Source of the DNA: Coniochaeta sp. PMI_546
Taxonomy: Eukaryota > Ascomycota > Sordariomycetes > Coniochaetales > Coniochaetaceae
Reading direction: 5' to 3'
Assembly: GCA_021432605.1 (NCBI GenBank)
Contig: MU271150.1
Coordinates: 930,001-994,000, forward strand
Length of the DNA stretch: 64,000 nt
Shown piece by piece: positions 35,364 to 63,984 of the stretch. Each line of letters starts with the position of its first letter. The stretch's first letter is position 1. Both the position numbers and the translations under genes were made by a program. The notes under the pieces were generated by a model that was not told the origin of the DNA, did no database searches, and saw only the letters and a program-made list of their open reading frames with translations.

Positions 35364-38004
35364 ATGGCGTACCGGCAAGGGCGCATCCGACCTCCTCGTA
35401 GGGTACGATTACTCGCCACCCGAAACAACAAGCTGTGAAAGCACAATGCTAACTACGTGCAAAATAGCCAATTGTTGGTCGCGCAGGAGAAGATGACTTC
35501 GACCCATGCTGGGACCTCCTCCGACAGGCACTCATCGACGTTCACGAGAAGAATGCGGGCAAGCTTTCTTTCGAGCAGCTGTACCGAGCGTCCTACAAGA
35601 TTGTCCTTAGAAAGAAAGGCGAGTTGTTGTATGACAGGGTGAAGGAGTTTGAGGAGAAATGGTTTCGCGACCACGTCATGCCGCCCATCGAGGCGTTACT
35701 CACAAAGAGTCTCATCAACATCACCCTCGTCAGCATGCCTAACAGCACGAGCACGAATGAGCGGCGACAACTGGGAGAGAAGTTCCTGGTCGGAATTAGG
35801 GATTCATGGGTAGACCACAACACGTCTATGAACATGATTGCGGACATCCTTATGTATCTTGACCGCACCTACTCTGCGGATAATGGCAGACCCTCGCTGT
35901 GGGCCACTACCATCGGGCTTTTCAGGGATAACATTCTGAGGGCTGGCTTGGGAGGCCTCGCCGACGAAGTAGATCAAGCTTCGGTCATCTTCGATGTTGT
36001 CAACGCGGTTGTCATGGACTTAATCAACCTGGAGCGTGACGGCGACGTGATCGATCGGAGTCTGATTCACAAAATCGTCAACATGCTGGAAATGCTTTAC
36101 GAGACGAATGAGGAGATCCAAGATCAAAGGCTTTATTTGACTGTTTTCGAACCTGCATATCTGGCGGACAGCCGGCGATACTACCAGAACGAGTGTGACA
36201 AGCTACTCAGAAACGGCGATGCCGCAGAGTGGCTCCGACATACCCAGCGGCGCCTGGCTGAGGAGCAGACACGCTGTGAGACGTCCATCTCTCTGTCCAC
36301 CGCCGACAAGATTGCAGAGGTGGTCCAACAGGAGTTGATCTCGGCACATCTAGATGAATTCTTGGCCATGGAGGGCTCCGGGTTAAGGAGCATGATTGAC
36401 AACGACCGCCTAGAGGATCTCGCCATTCTCTACCAGCTCATTTCTCGAGTCGACCCAAAGAAAGAGGCGCTGAAGAGGACAATCCAGTCGCGGGTTCGGG
36501 ACCTGGGCTTGGAAATTGAACGAGAGCTGAGAAAGACCGATTTCTCCGTGCCGCAAACAGCTTCCGCCGAAAGCGAGGAGGCGCCATCCGATGCGCCTGC
36601 CAAAGCTCAACCGCTCAACCAGGCCGCACAACAAACAGCTGCGGCTATCAGGTGGGTGGATGATGTTCTGGCACTGAAGGACAAATTCGACAACTTCCAC
36701 GTGAACTGCTTCAACGACGATATTATCATCCAGTCGGCGGTCACTCGGAGCTTTTCCGACTTCATCAACCAGTTCAACCGGAGTTCGGAATACGTGTCTC
36801 TCTTCATAGACGATAACCTGAAGCGTGGAATCAGAGGGAAGACCGAGGCTGAGGTGGACGTTGTGCTGGACAAGGCAATCGTTCTGGTCCGTTACCTCAC
36901 AGATCGGGACATGTTTGAGCGATACTACCAGAAGCATCTGGCGAGGAGGTTGTTACAGGGAAAGTCCGAAAGCCAAGCTGCAGAGAAAGAGATGATTTCG
37001 CGCATGAAGCAGGAAATGGGCAACCACTTCACCAGCAAATTCGAGGGCATGTTCAAAGACATGGACCTCTCGCGCGATCTTACAAACGGCTATCGAGAGC
37101 ACATCCGCGGTCTGGGGCAGGTGGAACAACAACGCGCGGATCTCAACATCAGCGTTCTGACGACCAACAACTGGCCACCAGAGGTAATGGGTCGGAGCGC
37201 GCAGGAGGGAACGCTGGGAGATTGCATCATGCCGCCAGAGATCGCGCGCCTACGGGAGAGTTTCTACAAGTACTATCTCAAGGATCGCAGCGGTCGTGTT
37301 CTGACCTGGGTCGTTACCGCCGGCACAGCCGACATCAAATGCTTGTTCCCCAAGGTTCCTGGCAAGGAGACCGGTCCCTTGAGCAAGGAGCGGCGATACG
37401 AGTTGACGGTTTCGACCTATGGCATGATCGTCTTACTCTTATTCAACGACCTGGGTCCGGATGAGTGGCTCTCGTTCGAGCAGATCCAGGAGACGACCAA
37501 TATTCCCCCTCAAGAGCTGTCTAGGACACTGGCTTCGCTCTCAGTTGCCGCAAAGGCCCGCGTCCTGCTCAAGGATCCGATGACAAAACAGGTCAAGCCT
37601 GGTGACAAGTTCGCCTTCAACGCTAGCTTCGTCAGCAAGGCCATCAAGATCAAGGCGCCCATCATCAACACGGCGTCCAAGGTCGAGGGTGACGAGGAGC
37701 GCAAGGAGACGGAGAAGAAGAACGACGATACGCGGAAGCACATCATTGATGCCGCGATTGTGAGGATCATGAAGTAAGTTTGCTTTGCATAATCTCTCTG
37801 TGAAGTGTTTTGTAGCTAACCCATGTCGCAATTAGACAACGCAAGACACTCAGCCACGCCAACCTCGTCAGCGAAGTGATCACTCAGCTCGCGAACCAAT
37901 TCAAACCCGACGTCTCCATGGTGAAGGTGCGGATTGAGGACCTTCTGTACCGCGAATACCTTGAGCGAGACGAAGACGGGTCGTCGTATCGTTACTTGGC
38001 ATAA
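35364..38004 (+). CDS. CUL3: Cullin-3
   Basis: Cullin-3 is the scaffold of ubiquitin ligases that take substrates through BTB-domain adaptors and recruit a RING protein (Rbx1/Hrt1) at the C-terminus. The short first exon encodes MAYRQGRIRPPRR, the typical cullin-3 N-terminus. Exons 35364-35402, 35468-37773 and 37836-38004 give 837 residues. The body includes LSFEQLYRASYKIVLRKKGE, the cullin repeats, and the cullin homology block MFERYYQKHLARRLL. The C-terminal winged helix has the neddylation site IVRIMKQRKTLSHANLV, with the acceptor Lys about residue 782, and ends SSYRYLA. Intron 1 (GTACGA..TAG, with TGCTAAC) could instead use GTAGGG with a later CAG, which would change only a few residues. 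Intron 2 (GTAAGT..TAG) splits the neddylated Lys codon. Confidence 0.94.
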
Positions 38005-50451: not shown

Positions 50452-50622
50452 AACAGCTACCATGGACACGATGCCTTCTGATATCTTCCTGCTCTTCGCC
50501 AGACACAGTTTTCCGGGTCGAGGCCAACCAAATCATCATCAGTCAATTGCCAACCGTCTAGTAAACCACTTATACACTGAACTTCAATCTCCTCCCTAAA
50601 CCAACAAACCCAGACATTCAAC

Positions 50623-51553
50623 ATGAGAGTCTCTTTCCCTCTTCTTCTCACCTTCGCGGCAGCCGCGGTCAATGCCTCTCCCGTTCCAGAAGCCGAACCC
50701 TGGTGCCTGACCAAGGGTGAACCCTGCTGGAAGTCTAAGCGGTCCGCCGAAGCGTTCATGGAAGCCACCCACGCCAATATCCACGAGGCCCGCGATGCGG
50801 AGCCTTGGTGTCTCGTCCCAGGCGAGCCATGCTGGAAGTCCAAGCGCGAGGCAGAGGCCTTCATCGCAGCCTCCGGTGGACTCGAGACTCGCGATGCCGA
50901 GCCGTGGTGTCTGACCAAGGGTGAGCCGTGCTGGAAGAACAAGCGCGCCGCCGAGGCGTTCATTTCGGCCGTTAAGGCCGGCCACTTCGAGGTGCGTGAC
51001 CCTCATCCGTACCTAGCCCCTGATTCGTGGTGCTTCCGGTTTTCATGCTACGTCAAACCTAAACCTCCAACTAACACCACCAACAAGGTACGTTCATGCC
51101 AACCTTGATTCTTGTTGCTCAGTTCACAACCCTAAAACCGTGCAATGTTCTGACAAGACCTGGTACCTCTAGGTCCGCGACGCCGCTCCTGAGCCTGAGC
51201 CCGAGCCGTGGTGCCTGACCAAGGGTGAACCGTGTTGGAAGAGCAAGCGATCCGCCATGGCGTTCATCGACGCCACCCACGCCAACATCCACGAGGCGCG
51301 CGATGCGGAACCTTGGTGTCTCACCCCAGGCGAGCCCTGCTGGAAGTCCAAGCGCGAGGCGGAAGCTTTTCTCGCAGCAGCGGGTGGACTCGAGACTCGC
51401 GACGCCGAGCCGTGGTGTCTGACAAAGGGCGAGCCATGTTGGAAATCCAAGCGCGAGGCGGAGGCTTTCACTGCCGCTATCGAGTCCGGAAGCTTCCTCA
51501 GGGCACGCAACCCGGATCCATGGTGTCTGACCAAGGGGGAGCCTTGCTGGTAG
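50623..51553 (+). CDS. Alpha-type peptide mating pheromone precursor
   Basis: The precursor of a secreted, non-lipidated mating pheromone like yeast alpha-factor and the ccg-4/ppg1 products of filamentous ascomycetes. Exons 50623-51087 and 51173-51553 give 281 residues; the intron is GTACGT..TAG, between codons. A signal peptide (MRVSFPLLLTFAAAAVNAS) is followed by tandem units. WCLTKGEPCW occurs five times (DNA starts 50701, 50905, 51209, 51413, 51521), WCLVPGEPCW once (50806) and WCLTPGEPCW once (51314). A degenerate unit, SWCFRFSCYV, has its Trp at 51028. Most units are followed by K-S-K-R or K-N-K-R, Kex2-type sites, and preceded by acidic/Ala-Pro dipeptides suited to a Ste13-like peptidase. 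The last unit ends at the stop codon, so needs no C-terminal trimming. The two Cys probably form a disulphide. Confidence 0.95.
50701..51550 (+). repeat. Tandem pheromone repeat array, duplicated block of four
   Basis: Eight units in two blocks of four, one per exon. Spacers after units 1 and 5 share ATHANIHEARDAEPW, and those after units 2 and 6 share GGLETRDAEPW. The unit order (TKG, x-PG, TKG, then a last unit) is the same in both blocks. The fourth unit is degenerate in block 1 and intact and terminal in block 2. Confidence 0.88.
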
Positions 51554-52257: not shown

Positions 52258-53490
52258 TCAGATGGTAAAGCGCATCGAAACCTCGTCGTCGAGACGGCTC
52301 TTGTAGCATTGGATGTGAAGGACCTTTGAAAGTGGGTCGACGTAGTCTACTGAGCTCTGTGCCGCCTCCGTCCCAACCAAGGATTTGGCCAGTCTCCGAT
52401 TCCTCAACATCTTAGCGACTAGTTCTCGCACCTCCACCGCATATTTGGTGTTTTCCCGTCGCAACTGGCGGCAATGACGGACAATGAGCCGCCACTGCTC
52501 CAAGTCCCTGTGCCCAGGACGTGGGCCGTTGCCTGTGACCGCAGCTGATGTCTCCTCCAAATCGGCGAAGAACTCCTGTACAAATGGTCGCACGCCGGCC
52601 TTTGCAAGCGTTGTCCAAATATTCCTGCCCCAGGTGCTAGAGATTGAAGAGGTGTTGTGCAAAGTCACGAGATCTAGGTGAGCAGAGGTAAGCTTGCGTC
52701 GATCCACCAAAAGCTCCACGGCTAGGCGACCAGAGATGAGACGTAAAATCCGGTAGAAGTCCATATAACCTAAGTAGCTACCGGCGATAAGAACCTGAAG
52801 AAGCTGGTCTATATCGTTGCAGTCGGCAAATGTCTCTGGGGTGGGGTCTTGAGCATGGCGAAGGAGGAGCGCAAATGATTCGCTACTGATCTTTGGAAGG
52901 TTTAAGCAATGACCCTGGCCACCAGACAGGACTGCCTGGTTCATTCCCATTACCAGTGTGCGCTTGAAGTAGCTAAAGCAGTTGACTAGAACTTCTCGCG
53001 GAAATATGTACTTGCTGTCATTTGTTTGGAAGGAAACGGTAACAGCGGAGCTGCCGCCATAACGATTCCTGTCGAGGCACAAAGAGTAATCAACGACTAG
53101 CCTCAAGCCGCAGTAGTTTGACAATTTCAAGAAATTGACTTACAAAAGCCAGTTCCTTTGATGGCTAACCCATGCTGCTTCGGCCGGAATATCGGTCTCG
53201 GAAGGGGCAGCTAGATTGTCTTTGGGCTCCATGGCTTCGTCTGCGATTCGCCGTCGCTTTGCTAGACGCTGAACGGCGTTGTTGCCCGAAGGCACCTCCG
53301 AGGATCGACTTGGCGGTCGGTTAGATGGCGAACTGGTAATGAGTGCTTGAGATACAGCTGAAGATGGTACGCTCAAGGGCGATGCCTGCCCAGAAGGCGA
53401 AGACTGAGAATCCGACTTTACAGCCTTGCGCGGGAACAGAATAAACCTTCCTACACTTGGGCGATCTCCTAGGGTCTGTCGTCCCTCCAT
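52258..53490 (-). CDS. BTB/POZ-like protein, cluster member A
   Basis: Exons 53490-53144 and 53068-52258 (minus strand) give 385 residues; the 75-nt intron is GTAAGT..CAG in phase 2. Exon 1 is a Ser/Pro-rich, probably disordered tail with a basic patch (RLAKRRR). Exon 2 begins NRYGGSSAVTVSF and has the BTB-like core: KYIFPREVLVNCFSYFKR near residues 135-151, LNLPKISSESFALLLRH, and LLQVLIAGSYLGYMDF. Family-specific blocks follow: VDRRKLTSAHLDLVTLH, AKAGVRPFVQEF, WRLIVRHCRQLR, YVDPLSKVL and a C-terminal MRFTI. In general BTB domains mediate dimerisation and bind cullin-3; the specific role here is unknown. It is closest to member C in the core. Confidence 0.8.
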
Positions 53491-54371
53491 GTCGCTCGCC
53501 TGGGTGCTAACAGGAGAAGTAGTTGGAAGTAGAAATGACGCAAATGCTTTCTACAGCTTGTTGGGCTTTATTGGGTTAATCAGATTTCTTCTCGGAAAGT
53601 CATTGAGAAATTGGAAGCGTGGGGAACTGGTGCGCTTACCGGAAGTGATGGGAGTCTTTCTAACGAAATATTTAGTGCTAAGCTCTGCCAGTGTAAACCT
53701 AAAGACTGAGATGTTTCACTTGAGAATAGACCTGGCCTCGAAATTTGCGGGACTCCACGGCATATTTGATGCAAGTTCTCAGTCGATATTTCTCTATGTT
53801 GATCTGGTCTCTACGGCTTAATGTTTGGTTTCGCTAGTTGAAATCTGCAGTTGGTACTATAACATTTCCCATTAGACTCTCCCATATTTGGTCTACGTGC
53901 CAAGTGACCCTCACAGCAAGGGTTCAATCTGCAATAGAAATACACAGATTTCAAGAAAAAAAAAATAGTTTTAGGGACCGTCAAAGATGGCGACTTAACG
54001 ATAGATGCCCGTCGAGGCGACAGAAGTCCGATACCTTTCATATACGACAGAGTTCGCACAACATCGTGTAACTTTGCCGCCATCTCGAAGTAGAGTGGCT
54101 CATTAAAGAGAAGTAGGTCACACACAGCCTTTACCGGCTTTCTAACTCGCAAATTCTCTATCAGGATCTAATTTCTCCGGCCATCTCGCCATCTGGAGAT
54201 GTCTCAGAGAGGTCGCAGAGACGCTAAGGAAGGGAGAGACTTTGAATGGTTTGGATGGTCATATGTGGGCTTTGCGTATCAAGGACTCCTTGACGTCAGT
54301 TACGTGAGGGTCACACACCATGACCATTTCAGTCCGGAAGACGCCAAATTTGAGAAGCTGATGGACAATGA
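53491..54371. other. Gap between cluster members A and B
   Basis: Upstream region of member A and downstream region of pseudogene B. An A-rich run lies near 53956-53967. No supportable gene. Confidence 0.5.
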
Positions 54372-55411
54372 TTAAGATAAAAAGTGCTCGCTAACCTCCA
54401 TGCCCATGTACGTTTCCAGTTCCTCCAGTGGAATGCCATCGACAGGTGGATCATCGTACTGCACGTGACCCATCGCAATAACCACGGGTGCATTCAACGC
54501 CGTCAATCATCAATCTTCCGCAGCTCAAAGTGCAGCGGGCCTCCTTCATGACAGCAAGTGCGTATCCATCGTCGTTCTCCCTCATCCGAAGACAGTATTC
54601 GAGTACCGAAAGCCATTCTTTGATGTGCGCGTTGCCAGGCGGGGTCATACGGCAATGCAGGGCATCGATGAAGGTCCTCTCATCCTTTGGCATGATCAGC
54701 ATGAATTCCTGGAGAAGAGGCCTGACACCAGCGTTAACGAACATGCTCCAAATAGTTCTGCTCTTTAAGGCTGGATGGTACGGACAAGATTCAAGTGGCT
54801 AGGCTTGAGTCGTCGGTGATCCTGCACCAGGGCCAAGCCTATGCGCTGTGCCTATGCGCTGCGTGACGTATTTTTCAAAACGTTCAATGTGAGGATCTTT
54901 CAGACCGAGATAGTCTGCACCCATGATCGCTTGAGGAAGTGAACAATCTTGTCGCAGTCGTCCAGCAATTTCGGTTGCGTTTGCAGCCACTTGAAGAGGC
55001 GCCCAAAAGCTTGGGATGAGACATCTCGAACATGGATGAGCAGGGACTTACCCTCCGTAAATACTGGACCACTCTCATTCGTCTGCAGTGCGGCTTCGAA
55101 TACTTGAACTTACTGGTGAGATGTTCCGCGGGGAAATTGTACTTCCTGTCGTCTAATCTAAGTCGACGGTGATGGAACGGCCGCTGCAGTGTACCGCCTA
55201 TCAGGCAAGGTGTCATTGAACTGAGTTGGGAAGCTTAATCTTTAGGCATGAATGTCAGGTGCTTTAATCCCCACCTCAGGTAGTCAGTTTCGTGGCCATC
55301 GCACACTTGAGCTTCATCACCCTCGAGCGTAGTGACATCTTTGACCTGGTGGTCGGAAGTGCTGATGTGTTCCGACTTCCGAGGCGAAGCAATCCGCCGG
55401 TAGCTGTCCAT
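54372..55411 (-). pseudogene. BTB-like cluster member B, frameshifted
   Basis: The whole family layout is present on the minus strand but broken across reading frames. An ATG at 55411 opens a short exon-1-like frame ending TDYLR at a GTGGGG donor in phase 2, as in the other members. After the matching TAG acceptor comes RRY, then frame changes before RSITVDL, before RKYNFPAEHLTSKFKY, and again at FEAALQTNESG. Further fragments are SSQAFGRLFKWLQT, ADYLGLKDPHIERFEKYV, QDHRRLKPSHLNLV, MFVNAGVRPLLQEF, WLSVLEYCLRMR and YDDPPVDGIP, in at least two more frame shifts. One shift is explained by a 13-bp tandem duplication at 54838-54863. No single-frame product is possible. Confidence 0.82.
54838..54863. 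repeat. 13-bp tandem duplication inside pseudogene B
   Basis: CCTATGCGCTGTG (54838-54850) is followed directly by CCTATGCGCTGCG (54851-54863), identical at 12 of 13 positions. Thirteen is not a multiple of three, so the duplication shifts the frame; with one copy the family reading frame is continuous across this point. Confidence 0.85.
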
Positions 55412-56522
55412 TGGACGGCAACATTGTCTGAGACAAGGACCTGACGGTAGTTCGAAGTCTCTACAACGGCCAGTTGCCGTTGCAATGGTTAGTCGCTTGG
55501 GAAAGCCAGGGCTCTATTATGATATAGCAGCAAGTAATATGCCTTGTATCAGATCAAAGTACAAGCACCGGCTTTATCACCTTAGGTGGATGATTAACCT
55601 ACGAGGAAAACAGAAAAACCTGTGTCCTACCTATAATTGCGCCGACCTTAGAGCAGTTTTTACAGCTGTATCCTGAGTTGGCTAGGGCCAATGGTTAAGG
55701 AGTGGTTGAGCAGGGCGGTTTGAGATATCGGGTGTGTGAGGTGGTCAGCGGGAGGAAGGAAACCTTGGCCGAAAGTTTGCGAAATCATTTTTCAACCACG
55801 AACGACTGTCATGGAGGATGAGGACTGAGCTCCAATTTCAGTGAGGAATATGAGAGGAAAATAGCGATATCAGTGACTGTAGTGGGTATTTCTCTTTAAG
55901 GAAAATAGACCTACATAGAAGACTTGAAATAGTACCACTGGGCGCGAAGCTCAGCGAGCGGAGCGCACTTCATGTCTATGTTCCATCACATATTTCAGGC
56001 TTCCAAAGCAATTGCTAAGGTACCTTAGTTAATGTCGATGATGTCCCACCAATGAGAAGTATCCGGCTTGTACGCACCCTACAGACCATCACAACATTGA
56101 GATGGAATGTACCGGATGCCGTGACGCCGAGCGACTTTCCAGCTCCTTCCACACGGGTACTAGAGTCAAGCCAGAAGCAACTTCCCGACATTTTTCAGAA
56201 GTCCAGTATGTATCTGTGACCTGGTCACTCGCACTTTCCCTCCTGATCTAGTTATTCGTGACGACGTGACTCTTCTTTTCGTGCAACAAATCTGTCATTG
56301 AACAATCAACATCTGGCCCTCGACTCGCCGTATCGACGAATCTCTCCTCACACAATTAATACTTGGCATTGGTTCCCAACTAATCACAATATCAATGGAA
56401 AACTGATTGTAATCCATGCAGGATCTGATCCATAGTTACAGCTTCGTCTGACTCGCATCAACGGAACGACCACTACCTTGTCTCGTGTGATAATCCCGCC
56501 CGATAAAAACGCCCAAGCAGAT
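55412..56522. other. Divergent gap between members B and C
   Basis: Should contain the (former) promoter of B and the promoter of C. No supportable gene. Confidence 0.5.
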
Positions 56523-57897
56523 ATGGCTGAATCACGGGCCGATTCTAGTGTTGGTAACGTCAGCTACAGCATTTTCGGTAGTGGTGTGCCAGAAAACCGA
56601 GACACAGAGCACAGGTATGATGCTCCTGGGACAGTTTTGGATGGGTTCTCCCCATTTGTTGAGCTTGAGACGCGAGAACCAGCCATGAGTTACGCATACC
56701 ATAACATCCTGTTCATGGAGTGTTATAAGAATTGGTCTGCCGAGGAGCTGAGAATCGCCGACTATGATAAAGATCGTCGTTCTGGAGGGTCTACAGGGAC
56801 GACAGCTATCAAAGCCGGGTTTGGTGACACTAGCCTGTTTGCACCCTTTGGATCGACTGCAACAAGCCCGGACTTTACTCCAGGTATCAAGACGCCTACA
56901 ACGAGTATCTTTGATACCGCTAGCAGAGATCAAGCTTCTGGATTCTCTTCATCGACAACGAGCATGATAGGTAGATTCGGTTCGACCCCAGATACTGGCC
57001 CTCTTGAGACTGCCAAGCGTCCTGCAAGCGATCGGAGTATCGACGAGACCGAGGAGGAATGGCTAAGGCATGTTATCGCGAGAATGACCCCCCTAATTGC
57101 ACCCCACTGACGCCAAGTGTCGAAGTAGAAACCGTTATTCTGGAACCAGTTCCATCTCCATCAAATGTGGTTCCGACGACAAAGATTATTTATTCCCAAA
57201 GGAAGTTTTGATGCGACACTTCCGGTATTTCAGAACCACGTTTGAGAAAGAAGATGGCTCGCACAACCAGAACCCGCCCGAACGGATCTTCAACGTTCAT
57301 CTAGAGGATCACACCACGATGGCTTTCGCACGTGTGGTTCGATGGACACAGACCGACCCTCGAAGCCGCGAAGATCCCGCCAACCCTACTGGAGATCATG
57401 CCGTAAGCGAATTACTGGATCAGATAATCGCAGCCCACCACCTCGGCCTCGATGACTTGAAAGAGTTTGAGGCCCATATCTCTTGTCTCTTGGCCACAAT
57501 ACTCTTACAAGATCGCCGGAAACTGTCCTCGGCGCACATCGACATTGTCGATTCGCACGAGTGCTTCGAGAAGAACAGTCCTGTCATGAGGGTACTCTTT
57601 AAGGCAGGTGTGAGACCGTTCCTGCAGTTGACTATGCTTAGTCCGGCACCAATGTGGGTGTCGCACGCTACCCCGGGTCACACGGATGCGAAAGTGTGGT
57701 TGGAGGTTATCCGTCACTGCCGCCAGTTGCGGGCAGACCACAAGCGATATGCTCTCAACGTAGCGCAGCAGACTGCGAGGACGCTGGAAACATGTTCGCG
57801 GAGTCTTCACGGTGACGTGCTCTTTCATGATCCTCTCGACGGCGACGAGATGAAGGGACGTCGGAGGCTCGACTTCGACCTCACGTTCAGTATCTAG
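56523..57897 (+). CDS. BTB/POZ-like protein, cluster member C
   Basis: Exons 56523-57067 and 57129-57897 give 437 residues. The intron appears to be of GC-AG type (AAG|GCATGT .. GTAG): this joins E-E-W-L-R to NRYSG in phase 2, exactly as in member A (W-L-L to NRYGG). A GTTATC..AAG alternative would be in frame but fits worse. Exon 1 is Ser/Thr/Gly-rich with FG-like motifs (SLFAPFGSTATS, IGRFGSTPDTG). Exon 2 carries KDYLFPKEVLMRHFRYFR, VHLEDHTTMAFARVVRW, LLDQIIAAHHLGLDDL, QDRRKLSSAHIDIVDSH, FKAGVRPFLQ, WLEVIRHCRQLR, LFHDPLDGDE and the terminal DFDLTFSI. Relation to A is clear over the whole of exon 2. Function unknown beyond a BTB-like fold. Confidence 0.78.
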
Positions 57898-58511
57898 CCG
57901 CCTCGTGAGGTTTTTGGTGGCAGATGTGGGATCAACTAAACGGTTGGCATGTACGTGTATTCAAGATGCAGGGTTTTGCTATGCTCGTCGAGGTTATGTT
58001 GGTTTAAGCACAGGACACAAACAATTCTTGTTAAGTGTCAGGTAGAATCACACATGCTATAATTCATGATGCAGGGGATAACATGATAATCTCGGCACAT
58101 TGGCAAAGACATGCCTGTCATAGATTTAGACCCTCCCCGAGACTCTTAAGTCCTCGTTGGTGATCCAATACCTGCGAGTGCTGGACCGGGCAACAATTGA
58201 TGTATCTTGGTGACTTTTCACGTCAAGACTTTTTAGATCATCAAGTAAAATACCCACCGTTGCCCTTCTGGAATCTACCTCCGTCTGAATGCTATAAGGT
58301 GCCATCGTTGGTGCAACTTCCGCAGCTCAAAATACAACGATGTAGTTCATGTCATGTCAAAGGACTCTAGTTCTTAAGCCAGCAACTTCAACGCGACCAT
58401 AAGGTTGCTTATTTCGAGCCAGAAAATGCTCCTGTCGAATCGACCGACCCTTCTGCCGCACACCTGTCAAGATCCTTCCTTGCTGCAACTCCCCGATATT
58501 CTCTCATTGGC
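57898..58511. other. Convergent gap between members C and D
   Basis: Presumably 3' UTR sequence of both genes. No gene seen. Confidence 0.5.
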
Positions 58512-59420
58512 CTAGATGATAAACTGAGACCTGCAAGTGTTCTTGAGGTCGGCTGATAAGAAAGAGACAAGCGGCTCCGTGAATAGAAGAGCGCCTTTCT
58601 GCCCGCACTGCTGGAACCTTATCCTCCCCTCTTTCAGAGTCTCTGTCACTTGCTTCGTAATATCAAGAGTCCACAGCTCATGTGACTCGCGCAATTCACT
58701 GCAGTGAGTGATACCAGGGTACCAAACCTTCGGATCATGGTGACCACTTCCCAAGGGTTCTTCGTCATAATCTGTGACCGTTAAGTGTTCTTGCAGAAAC
58801 GGTCGGACACCCGAAGCAACGAGTATTTTCCATATTAGCTTGCTTCTGAAGGCATGGTGCTTCGTGACAAGCCATATATGGTGTGACGTGAGGTTGCGTC
58901 GATCATCCAGAAGGTTCAACACCAGGTGTTCAGCAATGTTTTTCTCGAAGTCATCGAAGCATTTCATGCCTAGATAGTCTGCCGCAATCAGAAAGTGGAA
59001 CAGGTGATCGATCTTGTCCACAATGGGGCAGTATGGACGAATGGCTCGCGTCTCAGGCTTGAAGATGGATCTGTACAGCCGCGCGAAGGCCCGGGAAGCG
59101 ACGTGTTTGAGGTGGGCTGTCCGAGTCTGTCCCTCCATAAAGACAGCGCCACCAGAATTAGACGTGAGTGCCGCTCTGAAGTACTCAAAGTTCATGACCA
59201 GTGTGTCCTCCGCGAAAACATATGTGGTTGGGTCGGCTCCAAATCGTACGGAGATGGGATACTTTTTCCCAAACCGGTGTCTAGCGGGTGATAATGATCA
59301 GCATGTTTCTGTCTCACAGCGGTAAAGCATAAAAATTAATATTGAAATCTCTTACTTCAGCCACGCTCGGTCATCATCAAAGTCCTTATCGTCCTCAAAA
59401 GGATTGTTTTGTGATGAGCT
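58512..59420 (-). CDS. BTB/POZ-like protein, cluster member D, 5' end unresolved
   Basis: The last exon, 59280-58512, is 769 bases, the same length as that of C. Upstream is a 75-nt phase-2 intron (GTAAGA..TAG) and an exon piece 59420-59356 reading SSQNNPFEDDKDFDDDRAWLK, preceded by a CAG acceptor. This piece has no ATG and an in-frame stop lies just before it, so either another exon lies upstream or the 5' end is lost; I could not find a convincing first exon. The core reads TYVFAEDTLVMNFEYFRAAL, LFHFLIAADYLGMKCFDDFEKN, DDRRNLTSHHIWLVTKHH, VASGVRPFLQEHL, ITHCSELRES, LFTEPLVSFL and SQFII. The exon-2 frame is intact, so the gene may be functional. Confidence 0.65.
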
Positions 59421-60455
59421 CTGGCAAGTTGTTCGAGCTTAGGAAGTCCACTGCTCAAGGTAATCCGAAAGTCGTGTCCTGTGTGAAGGTCAAGCCACTC
59501 GCAGTTGAATGATTGGAAAACCTCGCATAGAACTGCCGTTATCAACAAGAGCTAGATCAAGTCCGTCTGCCGCAGGCAGGCATTTCGGTAGATTCGAACA
59601 GTTGAGGGTCTGGCCAGGAATTTTCGAGTAACAAGTACCGCCTGGTAATATCGATTTGGCTCATTGGGTACAGCACCCAAGGTACCTATGTAGGATAGTG
59701 GGCTAAAAATCCAGTGACGAGTACAGGTGAGTTAAGATAATCTTTCAGTTCCGGAAGATTCGTGCAAGTGGCCCTACCTAGCTGCTTGCTAAACAGGAGC
59801 TTCTGTTCAGAGAAGAAGAGAAGGAAGGTCCTCTGGTGACAAAAGTCAATGTCATTTGCTGTTGGAAGTGTGATAAGGTATGACTCGCGAAGCATTCGGG
59901 TGGGACCTGACAAGACCTACATGACTATCTGGGGCCATATTATCAGAATCAACGTACCTATTTTTTTGAGTGCTTTCATACCTCTAGGTATACATGCAAC
60001 AGACTTGATTAGTTTAAGGTTCCAAAATGCTCTCTCTTAGAAAGCAGAACTACCATTTAGGGTAAGGTATCTCTCTTCTAGAGCCATGCCAACGATGACT
60101 TGTCTTGTATCAGTTTAGAGAGATGTGCCACTCAGTCGCTAGCTCGAATTATGTGCAATGTCTTGCAGCGAAAAGTAAACCCCCTTTGCTTCATTATCTT
60201 CCCCTCGGAACTGCTCATTATGCCGTCAACAACCCAAACCAAACGCAAAACCTTAACCCAGTACCTCCAAGTAGTGAACATTCCGGGACCTGTCTCCTCC
60301 ACTCTTCCAGTGATCCAAAGCGCAATTGCACCGTCCTCCTTGGTGCAAGTGATGTGGAGGTTCGGTGATCCCCCAGAGCCGCCCAGTCGAAATAGTTGCG
60401 TGGCAGATCCCTGGACTCGCTGAGCCCTAATCAGATGCCACCCTCTTGTGCACAA
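59421..60455. other. Gap between members D and E
   Basis: May include a missing first exon of D. Open frames here are short and show no family motif. Confidence 0.45.
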
Positions 60456-61504
60456 TCAATTCGGCCAGAGACCGGGACCGGGGAGGCAGACTGTGACCGA
60501 GTCGATGTAATCAAAGAGCGGATCCCGGTAGTTGCTGGTCCTGAAATTGGTGTCACCACGCTCCATCGCTCTCAATGGTCCCGCCCACGTCTCTTTGACG
60601 GCCTCCTCGACTGCGTCGGAATACCAGAGACAATCCTGGCGAAGTTCAGCGTAGTGAGTGCGTATATCCGACCAAGAACATATGTTGACGTATTCAGCCG
60701 CAAATCCGCTCCTATACATGCTCCACCCCTCCCAGAAAGCGTATTGGGTTATGGACTCCATGAGATAAGGTCTGACTGCCGCTTTCACGCATACATCCCG
60801 GAAGATCATGCTTCTGAACGCGTTGTGTTCTGTAACGAGAAAGAGGGCGTCAGCTGTCAAGTTAAGGCGATTCATGATCAAAGCATATGCCAGACGTTCA
60901 GCGATGAACGCCTCAAACTTGTGGAAATCTTCCAAAAGGAAGAAGTCGGCCACGATGACGGCCACAAGGAGGTCGCGAACTTTCTCTGCCTGGTACTGTC
61001 GGTCTTCCTTGTAGCGCTCACCCTTCCGAGCCTTCCTCTCGATATAAGTGAAGATGCGTCCGAAGGCTTGACTGGTAATGTCATCGAAGTGGAGGTGCTT
61101 TGTTTCACCCTCGGCAGATACACGTCCGCTTAGGTCATTGAAATGGAAAGCTCCCCTGAAGTAAGCAAAGTTGGACGTCAGGAAATCTTTGGTAAAAGCA
61201 TACGTGCCCTTGTCGATTGGAGCAAAGTTGATGGTGATGGTAGATGAAGGTTGGTGAACGCTTGATTGCAAAGGTTTAGCAGGATATTACACAAAGGCAT
61301 GGGAGCGATGGTGTCTCACGCCAAACAATTCGGTTCGTTGGGGTATCGGCTAATCTTGCCCCATAGGAACACACATTCCATGCCATTGGTGACAGCCTCA
61401 GAGCCAGGCTTGGTCTGCTGCACCGTGATGTCGGTATTCGTAGAGTCTGACGATGAGTTCTTGGTAGGTGGAAGCGTCTTCCGCTTCTTCTGTGCTGGCT
61501 TCAT
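60456..61504 (-). CDS. BTB/POZ-like protein, cluster member E
   Basis: Exons 61504-61320 and 61260-60456 (minus strand) give 329 residues. The 59-nt phase-2 intron begins GTGAGA, contains GCTAAAC and ends AAG, a weaker acceptor than its relatives have. Exon 1 starts MKPAQKKRKTLPPTKNSS, a basic and possibly nuclear-targeting tail. Exon 2 has STITINFAPIDKGTYAFTKDFLTSNFAYFRGAF (read as two blocks), LHFDDITSQAFGRIFTYIE, VIVADFFLLEDFHKFEAFIAERL, NRLNLTADALFLVTEH, VKAAVRPYLMESI and YRDPLFDYI. The invariant Gly of the GVRPF motif is Ala here, and the C-terminus (GPGLWPN) lacks the family's final T-F-x-I. It is one of the more diverged members, but the reading frame is intact. Confidence 0.72.
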
Positions 61505-62853
61505 CTTGTTATCAAGATCCAGTCTGGGAGGTGGGCTATGGGAAAGGTGGTGTGACGTTGACGATGGATTTGAGCGTGTTGAACTGCGTGGGTAACTATC
61601 GCTTTACGATGGTGACAACAGAAAACGAGATTACGGTCACGTCGAGGTGCGTTGGGACCGAGGAAGTTCTCCGTGCCGAGAAGTGCTCCGTGAAGTGGCC
61701 GGGAGGGTGCTCTGCTGCGGCGCTGCCACAAAACTGCTCCGCTCCGTACGGGTGGCCTGCGTCAAAAAGCGCCCCGCCGACGGCAAGACGAAATAAGGGT
61801 TGGAAAAAACAGACGAATGAGTGACCAGGGGGATGGATGACTGAAAGCGTTGGGCAAAGTGTGAGACGTGCTTGAACCGCCACCTAACAGAACGGCACAG
61901 ACTCGAGTTGGTTACGGTGTTCAAGGAGATGATGTCGATTTGGTAAAATTTATCCGAGGTCCACTGGCCACAGATTGGGCAAGTGAAGTTAAATGCCGTA
62001 TAGCTTCACTTCCCTATCGATTAGGTTTGCTTCACCGTGGCAATTCTTCGCCATGTTGAGAGACCGATGAAGCAGCAAATACGTGTCTTGCGGCTTCGAT
62101 AAGTCATCCAGAGAAGAAAATCACCAGAAATAATCATATTGCGAAGTAAACGTGCCTGTAATACTCATCCATCTAAAGCTCAATTATCACGGAATCACGG
62201 TCTACCTTGGACTCTTGAGCTATATCTAGTGTCCTCAAGAGCTGCGGCCCCCAAAACCCGCTGTGCATCAACCTTGGCTCAGATGGGAAGATGTTCAGCC
62301 CAGCTGATGCTGTTAACCTTTCACTGGGTAGAGTCTGTAAAGGAAGCGAGCACTTGTCTTATGAAGTACGCGATAGTGTGTGGCGTGGGAATAGAGCAAA
62401 CTCCTGACATGACAGCTTGTAGATATCATGCTATACTTACATTCCTTAAAACAAGGACTCTCTGCCCTCTACTACTGCCCTTTCTCGCGGGTTTTGTCCT
62501 GATTCTGCATTCCCCCGTCAAATATTTTGTGATCAGAGTTTGATACGCACAAACGACTAATTATCGACCTCTTCGCCGTCAGACGACAGCGATCTCGCCA
62601 CTTACCGTCTAGGACCAGTCTCATTGACGTAGACAACTGGGTAGATATTATCGAAGATCTGAGCCCAAACTTGCTGGTCATTGACAAACATACTCTCCCT
62701 TACGTTTCACACGTTTCAATTCTTACCACCTCATCCTGCAGGTGGTTACTCGTCGGGGTGCCACGTCCTCTAAATTTTGCCTTTTATCCAGTAGTCTGTA
62801 AGGCCAGCAAACAATCCCGCCAAGCACTGATTTTGTGGGCTTGAACATTCAAG
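61505..62853. other. Divergent gap between members E and F
   Basis: Should contain both promoters. Short frames on both strands have no family motif. Confidence 0.5.
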
Positions 62854-63984
62854 ATGACTGTAAAGCAAGCCTCGTCATCACAGGCGCTGTCTATTCTGAC
62901 AGAGGGGGCTTCTGGAAATGTCTTGTCCAAAGTCGACAACAATGGGGACAGTGCAAGTCAGTGAACACTCTTCAGGTCACTCCAAGTACTTGGCATAGTG
63001 GACTTACCACTTTTATACTCAAGCAGATGACAATCGCGACGACATGCCGATAGCCTCCGATTTACATTACTTTTCTACTGAGGGGACCAATCCGTAGTAG
63101 TGCCCGGCTTGGCCGTTCCCAAGGACACGTTCCAGTAGGTTTGCGATCAAAGCCATCTTCAGCAAGTCTAACGTCTCATTAACGATAGACACTGGCATGG
63201 CGCAGGCGGCCGACTGAACATCCAATTTAGTGACAACGACTCCCAGTTTGAGCTTCGTCTAGCAGCCTTAATTGCTTCATTCGACTACTTCAAGCGGTTG
63301 CTAGACCCTGACACGGCGATCTCATTCTCTGAGCAGAGTGACCGGGTGCTTAATATTCAGGAGACGACCTACGCCTCTGACTTCGATATCCTGATCACTT
63401 GGCTACAAACGGGAGTCTTGAAGATGCCGCGAAAGGGAAACTTGGCTGTCACTCGCTGCATCTCCAGTATTGTCGCTGTGGATTACCTACAAATGTCTAA
63501 CACGGATAGGTATATCAAAGACGTGGAGACATGTCTTCATAGATACCTCTGTGGTAGCCGCAAAACACTGTTGCCTCACCACCGGCGGCTCATGCGTCGG
63601 CACTCATTTCTATTCCAGAAGAAAGCCAAAGGAATCAGTACCCTTGCCGCCAAAGCTGCTGTGCGACCTTTCATGACGAGCCATCTTGCTGAGAGTCCCG
63701 GAAAGCTCGATAAGAACATCAGGACAGAGTGGACGGAGGTAGCGTCACATTTCATGGGGTTGATGGACAATGATACCACGTACGCGGATAATGTGATGGT
63801 GGAGGTTCGTCAGACACATCGCACGGCCAAACGACAAGATAATGTCCAGCTCAGCTCAGCCGTCTCGTTTGGATACCGTGGTTTCCCAGAAACTCAGTAT
63901 GCTCGTTTCGATCTCGTCAGGTACTGGGAACCCCTGTTCCCTTTCTCTACCCAGAATTTAGCGACGGCCACTTTCACGATTTGA
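62854..63984 (+). CDS. BTB/POZ-like protein, cluster member F
   Basis: The last exon, 63189-63984, is well supported: RLNIQFSDNDSQFELRLAALI, then ASFDYFKRLLD, IVAVDYLQMSNTDRYIKDVE, RRLMRRHSFLFQ, AKAAVRPFMTSHL, WTEVASHFMGLMDN, YWEPLFPF and the terminal ATFTI. A TAG acceptor before it gives HWHGAGG in phase 2, as in the relatives. The proposed first exons, 62854-62956 (MTVKQASSSQALS) and 63027-63093 (ending TEGTNP), join with GTCAGT..CAG and GTAGTA..TAG and keep phase 2, giving 321 residues, but the second donor is weak. The usual Y-x-F-P motif of the core is replaced by QFELRLAALI, so this is the most diverged copy in the N-terminal half. Confidence 0.62.

Follow-up and report, generated by a model that had tools for sequence, protein, structure and literature searches.

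A cluster of six homologous units (copies A to F) lies at positions 52258-63984 of the window, that is, the whole 64,000-nucleotide stretch of DNA analysed. The units are arranged in the orientation - - + - - +, and both the place and the strands given by a sequence-only reading of this DNA were borne out, its unit coordinates corresponding to exon 2 only. Five of the six units (A, C, D, E and F) hold a single open frame of 261-293 amino acids, which is the BTB-bearing exon, and an upstream exon followed by a predicted phase-2 intron at an identical site occurs in A, C and E and probably also in D and F (Table 1).

Table 1. Positions of the cluster copies, their parts and the CUL3 gene within the window.
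Feature	Position	Strand	Basis
CUL3 (cullin-3) gene	35364..38004	+	Pfam Cullin 9.9e-203; gene ends read from sequence
Copy A unit	52258-53139	-	open frame, homology
Copy A two-exon gene model	52258..53490	-	sequence reading, own-genome similarity
Copy A exon 2 (BTB, BACK-like, C-terminal part)	52258-53068	-	sequence reading
Copy A phase-2 intron, GTAAGT..CAG	53069-53143	-	predicted
Copy A exon 1, basic patch LAKRRR	53144-53490	-	sequence reading
Copy B unit	54451-55234	-	pseudogene
Copy B pseudogene with possible exon 1 remnant	54451..55513	-	BTB-family pieces, three frames, one TAG
Copy C exon 1: Nup98-derived piece (aa ~33-168), then the family's own exon-1 end (...DETEEEWLR)	56523..57067	+	genome search, blastp, tblastn
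Copy C GLEBS core (aa 59-86), YHNILFMECYKNWSAEELRIADYDKDRR	56697..56780	+	homology to Nup98
Copy C phase-2 intron, GC-AG type, GCATGT..TAG	57068..57128	+	predicted
Copy C unit	57097-57897	+	open frame, homology
Copy C exon 2 (BTB, BACK-like, C-terminal part)	57129..57897	+	alignment
Copy D unit	58512-59297	-	open frame, homology
Copy D, exon 1 end to exon 2	58512..59440	-	sequence reading
Copy D exon 2	58512-59280	-	sequence reading
Copy D phase-2 intron, GTAAGA..TAG	59281-59355	-	predicted
Copy E unit	60456-61286	-	open frame, homology
Copy E two-exon gene model	60456..61504	-	sequence reading
Copy E exon 2	60456-61260	-	sequence reading
Copy E phase-2 intron, GTGAGA..AAG	61261-61319	-	predicted
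Copy E exon 1, basic patch KKRK	61320-61504	-	sequence reading
Copy F, upstream exons tentative	62999..63984	+	similarity, sequence reading
Copy F possible phase-2 intron	63094-63188	+	predicted
Copy F unit	63172-63984	+	open frame, homology
Copy F exon 2	63189-63984	+	sequence reading

Structure and divergence of the copies

Between copies, exon 1 can be aligned only at its end, which in copy D reads ...DDDRAWLK and belongs to a frame with no ATG. No recognizable source gene for exon 1 of A and E was found in the fungus's own genome (two rows elsewhere for exon 1 of A, E 0.4, were taken as chance), and an intron in common with the ordinary BTB genes of this genome was not established at the six loci compared. 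In copy B, a pseudogene, the family similarity is split across three reading frames with one in-frame TAG, and in the own-genome search with copy D as query one piece contained one stop and another four. The open frame at 55235-55513 could be a remnant of its exon 1. RIP was rejected as the cause of the divergence or of the decay of copy B, as the composite RIP index was negative in every stretch measured (-0.78 at copy B, with no RIP signature). A transposon-borne duplication was likewise discarded, no inverted repeats being found in 50-64 kb (minimum length 20); at the same settings, the only direct repeats between copies were two of 21-23 nt, shared by B and D.

In own-genome searches, copy E retrieved D (3e-25), C (2e-15) and A (8e-10), copy D retrieved C (2e-28) and A (4e-27), and copy A retrieved C (4e-30). 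Copy F is the most divergent (C 1e-6, A 1e-5, D 1e-4); E and F gave no mutual match in these searches and a weak one in phmmer (0.008-0.011, five-sequence search). An alignment of the five open copies contains 19 invariant columns, with copy E lacking the common C-terminus. Two of the motif spacings listed from the sequence alone had to be corrected by this alignment, to L-x3-F-x-Y-F (not x5) and W-x5-H (not x4), and D-R-R and H-C-x2-L-R are missing from E and F. Synonymous sites are saturated (pS 0.70-0.91, with pN 0.45-0.59, in ten pairs), so that old copies cannot be told from fast-evolving ones; pN was below pS in all ten pairs and in each half of exon 2.

This family may be undescribed, as had been suggested: no Pfam or NCBIfam model scored above cut-off, and within this one genome no relatives outside the cluster were found with the four queries A, D and F (E <= 10) and E (E <= 1e-3). 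These searches score the best candidates only, and distant members may escape them. Pfam matches of copy A to BCAS2 and DUF2982 (E 0.16) and of copy E to Cupredoxin_1 (E 0.17) were rejected as chance-level, as were the two NCBIfam rows for F, the other four open copies giving none. No relatives were found among 14 and 10 pattern matches in viral contigs and 12 in bacterial and archaeal genomes, collections not meant for fungi, and Rfam and tRNA scans were empty. Among the titles and abstract openings of the listed literature matches on BTB expansions, no comparable fungal family was found.

The predicted BTB fold

A fold model of exon 2, built for copy E from five sequences (pLDDT 69.2), predicts a BTB domain followed by BACK/3-box-like helices. 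The 50 rows listed by Foldseek are BTB/Skp1-type and include BCL6, BACH1, ZBTB8A, SPOP, KBTBD2 and NPR1. In the PDB profile search, seven of eight rows were the BTB domains of KBTBD2 or KBTBD4 (E 0.19-0.79, not significant alone). The BTB-like core first proposed from motifs is thus upheld by one fold prediction together with a non-significant profile search. In SPOP, KBTBD2 and NPR1 the BTB is followed by BACK-type helices, and their alignments reach model residue ~235; because they run into this helix region, the earlier view that no known partner domain follows the core is weakened. The last ~40 residues have no assignment. In a viral fold search, poxvirus and giant-virus BTB proteins appeared among the named rows, which was taken as fold similarity only.

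The cluster is set apart from the ordinary BTB proteins of this genome, which match PF00651 and which the cluster copies resemble weakly. PF00651 matched none of the five open copies and none of the three copy B pieces (E <= 10); genome-wide it marked 19 stretches, 16 over cut-off, all outside the six cluster copies. With filters off, a family profile matched five of the 19 ordinary BTB frames (a small set) with E <= 0.01, the nearest being L023 (11.2 bits) and L022 (9.5 bits), both weak. When five ordinary BTB proteins were compared by hhalign, only L022 (E 5.5e-4, probability 30%) stood clear of five reversed controls (0.12-0.54); the others were L008 (E 0.032), L023 (0.05), L019 (0.13) and L005 (0.6). 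No MATH or Kelch match was present in the Pfam rows (exon 2 of the five open copies, exon 1 of A, C and E).

A Nup98-derived piece in exon 1 of copy C

Exon 1 of copy C, on the evidence of homology, contains a captured piece of the fungus's own Nup98 centred on GLEBS, the motif at which the mRNA-export protein Gle2/Rae1 docks; this piece had been overlooked in the sequence-only reading. It matches the genome's own Nup98 with 44% identity in the genome search (E 7e-20), 43% over 138 columns in blastp and 43.5% in tblastn (E 1e-23). Only four FG remain against 11 in Nup98, most FG repeats having been lost, and Pfam gave no match to the autopeptidase domain in this exon. The Pfam model Nup98_GLEBS scored 17.7 bits on copy C, below the curated cut-off of 27, and did not match the genome's own Nup98 frame either (E <= 10); exon 1 alone had no PDB match (E <= 10). 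In the GLEBS core pN was 0.16, with pS at 0.74, near saturation, and in the remaining captured piece pN was 0.48; the motif has been conserved under constraint. Among the exons 1 searched (A, C and E), motif capture is shown for copy C alone. Titles and abstract openings in the literature yielded no relevant work joining GLEBS or Nup98 with a fungal BTB protein.

A possible family of CUL3 substrate receptors

CUL3 is the scaffold of BTB-type ubiquitin ligases. A CUL3 gene, overlooked before, lies inside the window at 14.25 kb from the cluster edge; its best PDB match is Cullin-3 (1.9e-124, vs 7.4e-88 for Cullin-4A), and the genome contains four cullin-like loci. This linkage is a post hoc observation. 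The adaptor role proposed earlier fits a predicted BTB followed by BACK/3-box-like helices, and with a CUL3 gene in the genome, CUL3 is the likely partner of the cluster proteins. The alignment is uncertain in the BTB loop of the phi-X-E motif, a feature of CUL3 adaptors.

The reading we tentatively favour, at somewhat less than an even chance, is that BTB substrate receptors of the CUL3 type, whose N-terminal exons can be exchanged, expanded locally here long ago. Copy C would have Gle2/Rae1 as its target because GLEBS docks that protein. Its established part comprises the homology of the copies, the predicted BTB fold, the capture and constraint of GLEBS and the nearby CUL3 gene. Exon 2 would be the constant part, providing dimerisation and CUL3 binding through the BTB, the 3-box/BACK-like helices and the conserved C-terminal part. 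Exon 1, presumably spliced to it, would supply the bait, plus a basic NLS-like patch in A and E, and the proteins would probably be nuclear. Having gained its bait from Nup98, copy C would bring CUL3 to Gle2/Rae1 or its bound partners, and the target would then be ubiquitylated or sequestered. The rare GC-AG type that the copy C intron must have and the AAG acceptor of copy E both count against this explanation. So do the missing PF00651 match of the five open copies, a single fold model built from five sequences, the below-cut-off Pfam score of GLEBS, the lack of a PDB match for exon 1 of copy C, the post hoc nature of the CUL3 linkage and a capture shown in one copy only.

The same proteins might instead act without CUL3, as nuclear scaffolds or transcription cofactors oligomerising by their BTB, with GLEBS only tethering copy C to Gle2/Rae1 or the nuclear pore. 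This is rather unlikely: the BTB leads into BACK/3-box-like helices, an arrangement shared with CUL3 adaptors, a CUL3 gene is nearby and the Pfam rows contain no DNA-binding domain. It draws, however, on the NLS-like patches of A and E and on BCL6, BACH1 and ZBTB8A in the fold list, none of which is known chiefly as an adaptor of CUL3. It is also favoured by the available part of a Neurospora study, where BTB1 (NCU04838) binds Cul3 and is the only reported Cul3 binder among eight BTB proteins (PMC2996332). BTB1 resembles the cluster copies in being a fungal BTB protein.

It is improbable that GLEBS is a passive relic, or that the two exons of copy C do not belong together, in a decaying cluster. 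The pseudogene B, the unusual intron of copy C, the absence of an ATG from the exon-1 frame of D and the loss of the common C-terminus in E would suit such decay, but a pN of 0.16 at a pS of 0.74 in the GLEBS core is unexpected in a relic, exon 1 of copy C keeps an open frame of 182 codons whose final W-L-R falls at the common intron phase, and every copy but B has an open exon 2, with pN lower than pS throughout. Self/non-self or mating recognition, suggested from the sequence alone, found no support and seems very improbable; the high divergence between copies is equally well explained by age, the Pfam rows include no known allorecognition domain, and the alpha-pheromone precursor gene ~0.7 kb beyond the cluster, whose peptide was not found in the literature, is only a neighbour.

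The motif picked up by copy C suggests that the cluster generates new targeting proteins. In a bolder form of the receptor reading, to which we give little credence, the cluster would be a workshop swapping baits on CUL3 receptors by joining a constant BTB exon to captured host motifs. Copy C would place Gle2/Rae1 under CUL3 control or serve as an integrated decoy: where a parasite, a virus or a selfish element directs a protein against the contact of Gle2/Rae1 with Nup98, that protein would bind the GLEBS of copy C and be ubiquitylated.

Compared with the BTB-BACK/3-box CUL3 adaptors KEAP1, KBTBD2 and SPOP, the cluster copies share the predicted BTB topology and the helices that follow, but lack a Kelch or MATH match, fall below Pfam thresholds and have their own variable N-terminal exon and conserved C-terminal part (W-x5-H, D/E-P-L). 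Copy C keeps the GLEBS of Nup98/Nup116, with putative Gle2/Rae1 binding, but carries it ahead of a BTB protein. As in copy C, TRIM5-cyclophilin fusions bear a host-protein module as bait on a ligase-linked protein; the ligase class differs, and antiviral activity is known for no cluster copy. The nematode F-box A2 genes, in the accessible text of PMC12062965 (citing Thomas 2006), are expanded ubiquitin-ligase adaptors with a captured foreign domain, a proposed protein-binding platform; they join an F-box to a transposase HTH, whereas copy C joins a BTB to a host nucleoporin motif. Should copy C bind both Gle2/Rae1 and CUL3, mRNA export and the nuclear pore would be tied to CUL3 ligases through a fusion with the fungus's own nucleoporin, and the cluster would be a fungal example of an adaptor family gaining targets by bait-motif capture. 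The prediction for copy C is concrete: one motif, one partner.

Composition and setting of the cluster

The six BTB-like units of the sequence-only reading were borne out, with copies A, C, D, E and F open and B broken. The open frames (5 of 6 copies) encode 261-293 aa and share 19 invariant alignment columns; own-genome searches or phmmer detected above-chance similarity in 9 of the 10 copy pairs, the E-F pair being weak. When the whole genome (33.48 Mb, 24 contigs, with the window at C8:930001-994000) was queried with A, D and F (E <= 10) and with E (E <= 1e-3), matches were confined to 982-994 kb of contig C8.

Complete two-exon models were obtained for A, C and E, with an intron site common to D and possibly F. 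Upstream of the predicted phase 2 intron stands W-L-x (in A, C and D) and downstream stand N-R-Y-G-like residues; its splice sites are unusual in C (GC donor) and E (AAG acceptor). The length of exon 1 is about 62 codons in E, 116 in A and 182 in C; by eye, the copies can be aligned at its end only. At the extreme C-terminus, F-(T/S/I)-I occurs in four of the five open copies (A, C, D, F); the E frame runs ten residues (CLPGPGLWPN) beyond the common C-terminus, a possible sign that its first stop codon is gone.

Genes of the window are eukaryotic, including Utp20, a cullin, Med14, G6PD and an alpha-pheromone precursor, a content read here as fungal; the Utp20 is closest to entry 6rxu, from the fungus Chaetomium. 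Open frames were also listed for the flanks, 19 kb on the right side of the window and 10 kb on the left, the right flank containing small frames followed by a long one that, by reading of its sequence, resembles clathrin heavy chain.

Features of the cluster, its neighbors and related loci (window positions unless a contig is named)
Feature	Position	Strand	Remark
Cullin frame	35468-37774	+	E 9.9e-203
Alpha-type pheromone precursor	50581-51553	+	left of cluster
Copy A, gene end	52258	-	
Copy C, gene end	57897	+	
Copy D, gene end	58512	-	
Copy E, C-terminal extension	60456-60490	-	
Copy F, gene end	63984	+	
Nup98 match of C exon 1	C13:95934-96356		
Ordinary BTB pair L013/L018	C4:902-907 kb		PF00651
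Ordinary BTB pair L014/L015	C9:816-819 kb		PF00651
Ordinary BTB pair L016/L020	C23:155-158 kb		PF00651
Ordinary BTB protein L022	C1:805924-806109		

A nucleoporin docking motif in copy C

With exon 1 of copy C as query (E <= 10), the sole other place matched in the genome lies on contig C13 (E 7.2e-20, 44% identity), within a 1289-aa frame carrying FG repeats and a Nup98 autopeptidase domain; since this long Nup98 frame persists, a partial duplication occurred rather than a move. By blastp, residues 33-168 of C align with Nup98 (43% over 138 columns), and because identity, highest at residues 62-76 (12/15), falls to 3-6/15 at the ends, in low-complexity sequence, the outer limits of the captured piece are uncertain. 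Similarity at the DNA level spans 94 nt over the motif alone (72%, E 4e-8).

The motif of C matched Pfam Nup98_GLEBS at E 0.0037, under the model's cut-off. Of the 10 rows retrieved with a profile of C and Nup98, 7 are Nup98 chains, the best being 4owr_B, 7byf_B, 3mmy_B and 7vpg_B (E 0.007-0.016), reportedly solved with Rae1. Judged by sequence, the captured motif is a GLEBS, described in PMC4283134 as the site where Gle2/Rae1 binds. FG dipeptides number 4 in C vs 11 in the matching Nup98 stretch; the predicted Gle2-docking motif is retained and the FG part mostly gone.

Between C and Nup98, pS is 0.74 inside the motif and 0.72 outside, with synonymous sites near saturation in both, and pN is 0.16 inside vs 0.48 outside, part of the low motif value being attributable to presumed constraint on Nup98 itself. 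Identical residues amount to 20/28 in the motif vs 46/142 outside (p 1.4e-4). In a binomial test the motif gives p 5e-8 if the outside rate is assumed and p 0.008 if the rate is set at 0.30. A C branch drifting freely at such synonymous distance would be expected to have lost the GLEBS.

BTB adaptor families are known, and the novelty here is the capture of a nucleoporin docking motif in one copy; no GLEBS-BTB or fungal Nup98-BTB domain fusion was found in the open-access literature searched.

Predicted function and neighboring genes

The best-supported mechanism is that the cluster copies would act as BTB-BACK-like receptors with interchangeable N-terminal baits, presumably serving CUL3, and that copy C would recruit Gle2/Rae1 through its GLEBS. 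Against it weigh the reliance on a single structure model built from few sequences and the lack of a Pfam BTB score in the cluster copies. Capture is demonstrated for C alone, no source gene for exon 1 of A or E having been found in the own genome. BTB-CUL3 ligases occur in fungi (PMC2996332), and nematode F-box genes (PMC12062965) are an expanded ligase-adaptor family that took up a foreign module, a precedent for the capture in copy C.

The window cullin, one of four cullin-like loci in the genome, is identified as CUL3: its best solved relatives are Cullin-3 (1.9e-124), ahead of Cullin-4A (7.4e-88) and Cullin-1 (7.1e-54). The distance from the end of its gene to the cluster is 14.25 kb. Such a target represents 0.12% of the genome, and this proximity, noticed after the fact, is a hint and not a test.

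Nothing was found in favor of the role in self/non-self recognition or mating that had been suggested from the sequence, and, with synonymous saturation between the copies, their divergence is consistent with an old origin. The pheromone precursor is a neighbor and lends no support to a mating role. It contains seven WCLTKGEPCW-like repeats in two blocks, a 300-nt block being duplicated at 83% identity; a start codon and signal-like sequence open the first block only, so that either a single intron-containing gene or a tandem duplication is probable.

Ordinary BTB genes also occur as close pairs elsewhere in the genome, and L014 and L015 carry KR-rich N-terminal parts ahead of the BTB. Nearest to the cluster family by hhalign is the ordinary BTB protein L022 (E 5.5e-4; reversed controls 0.12-0.54), a candidate for the ancestral type.
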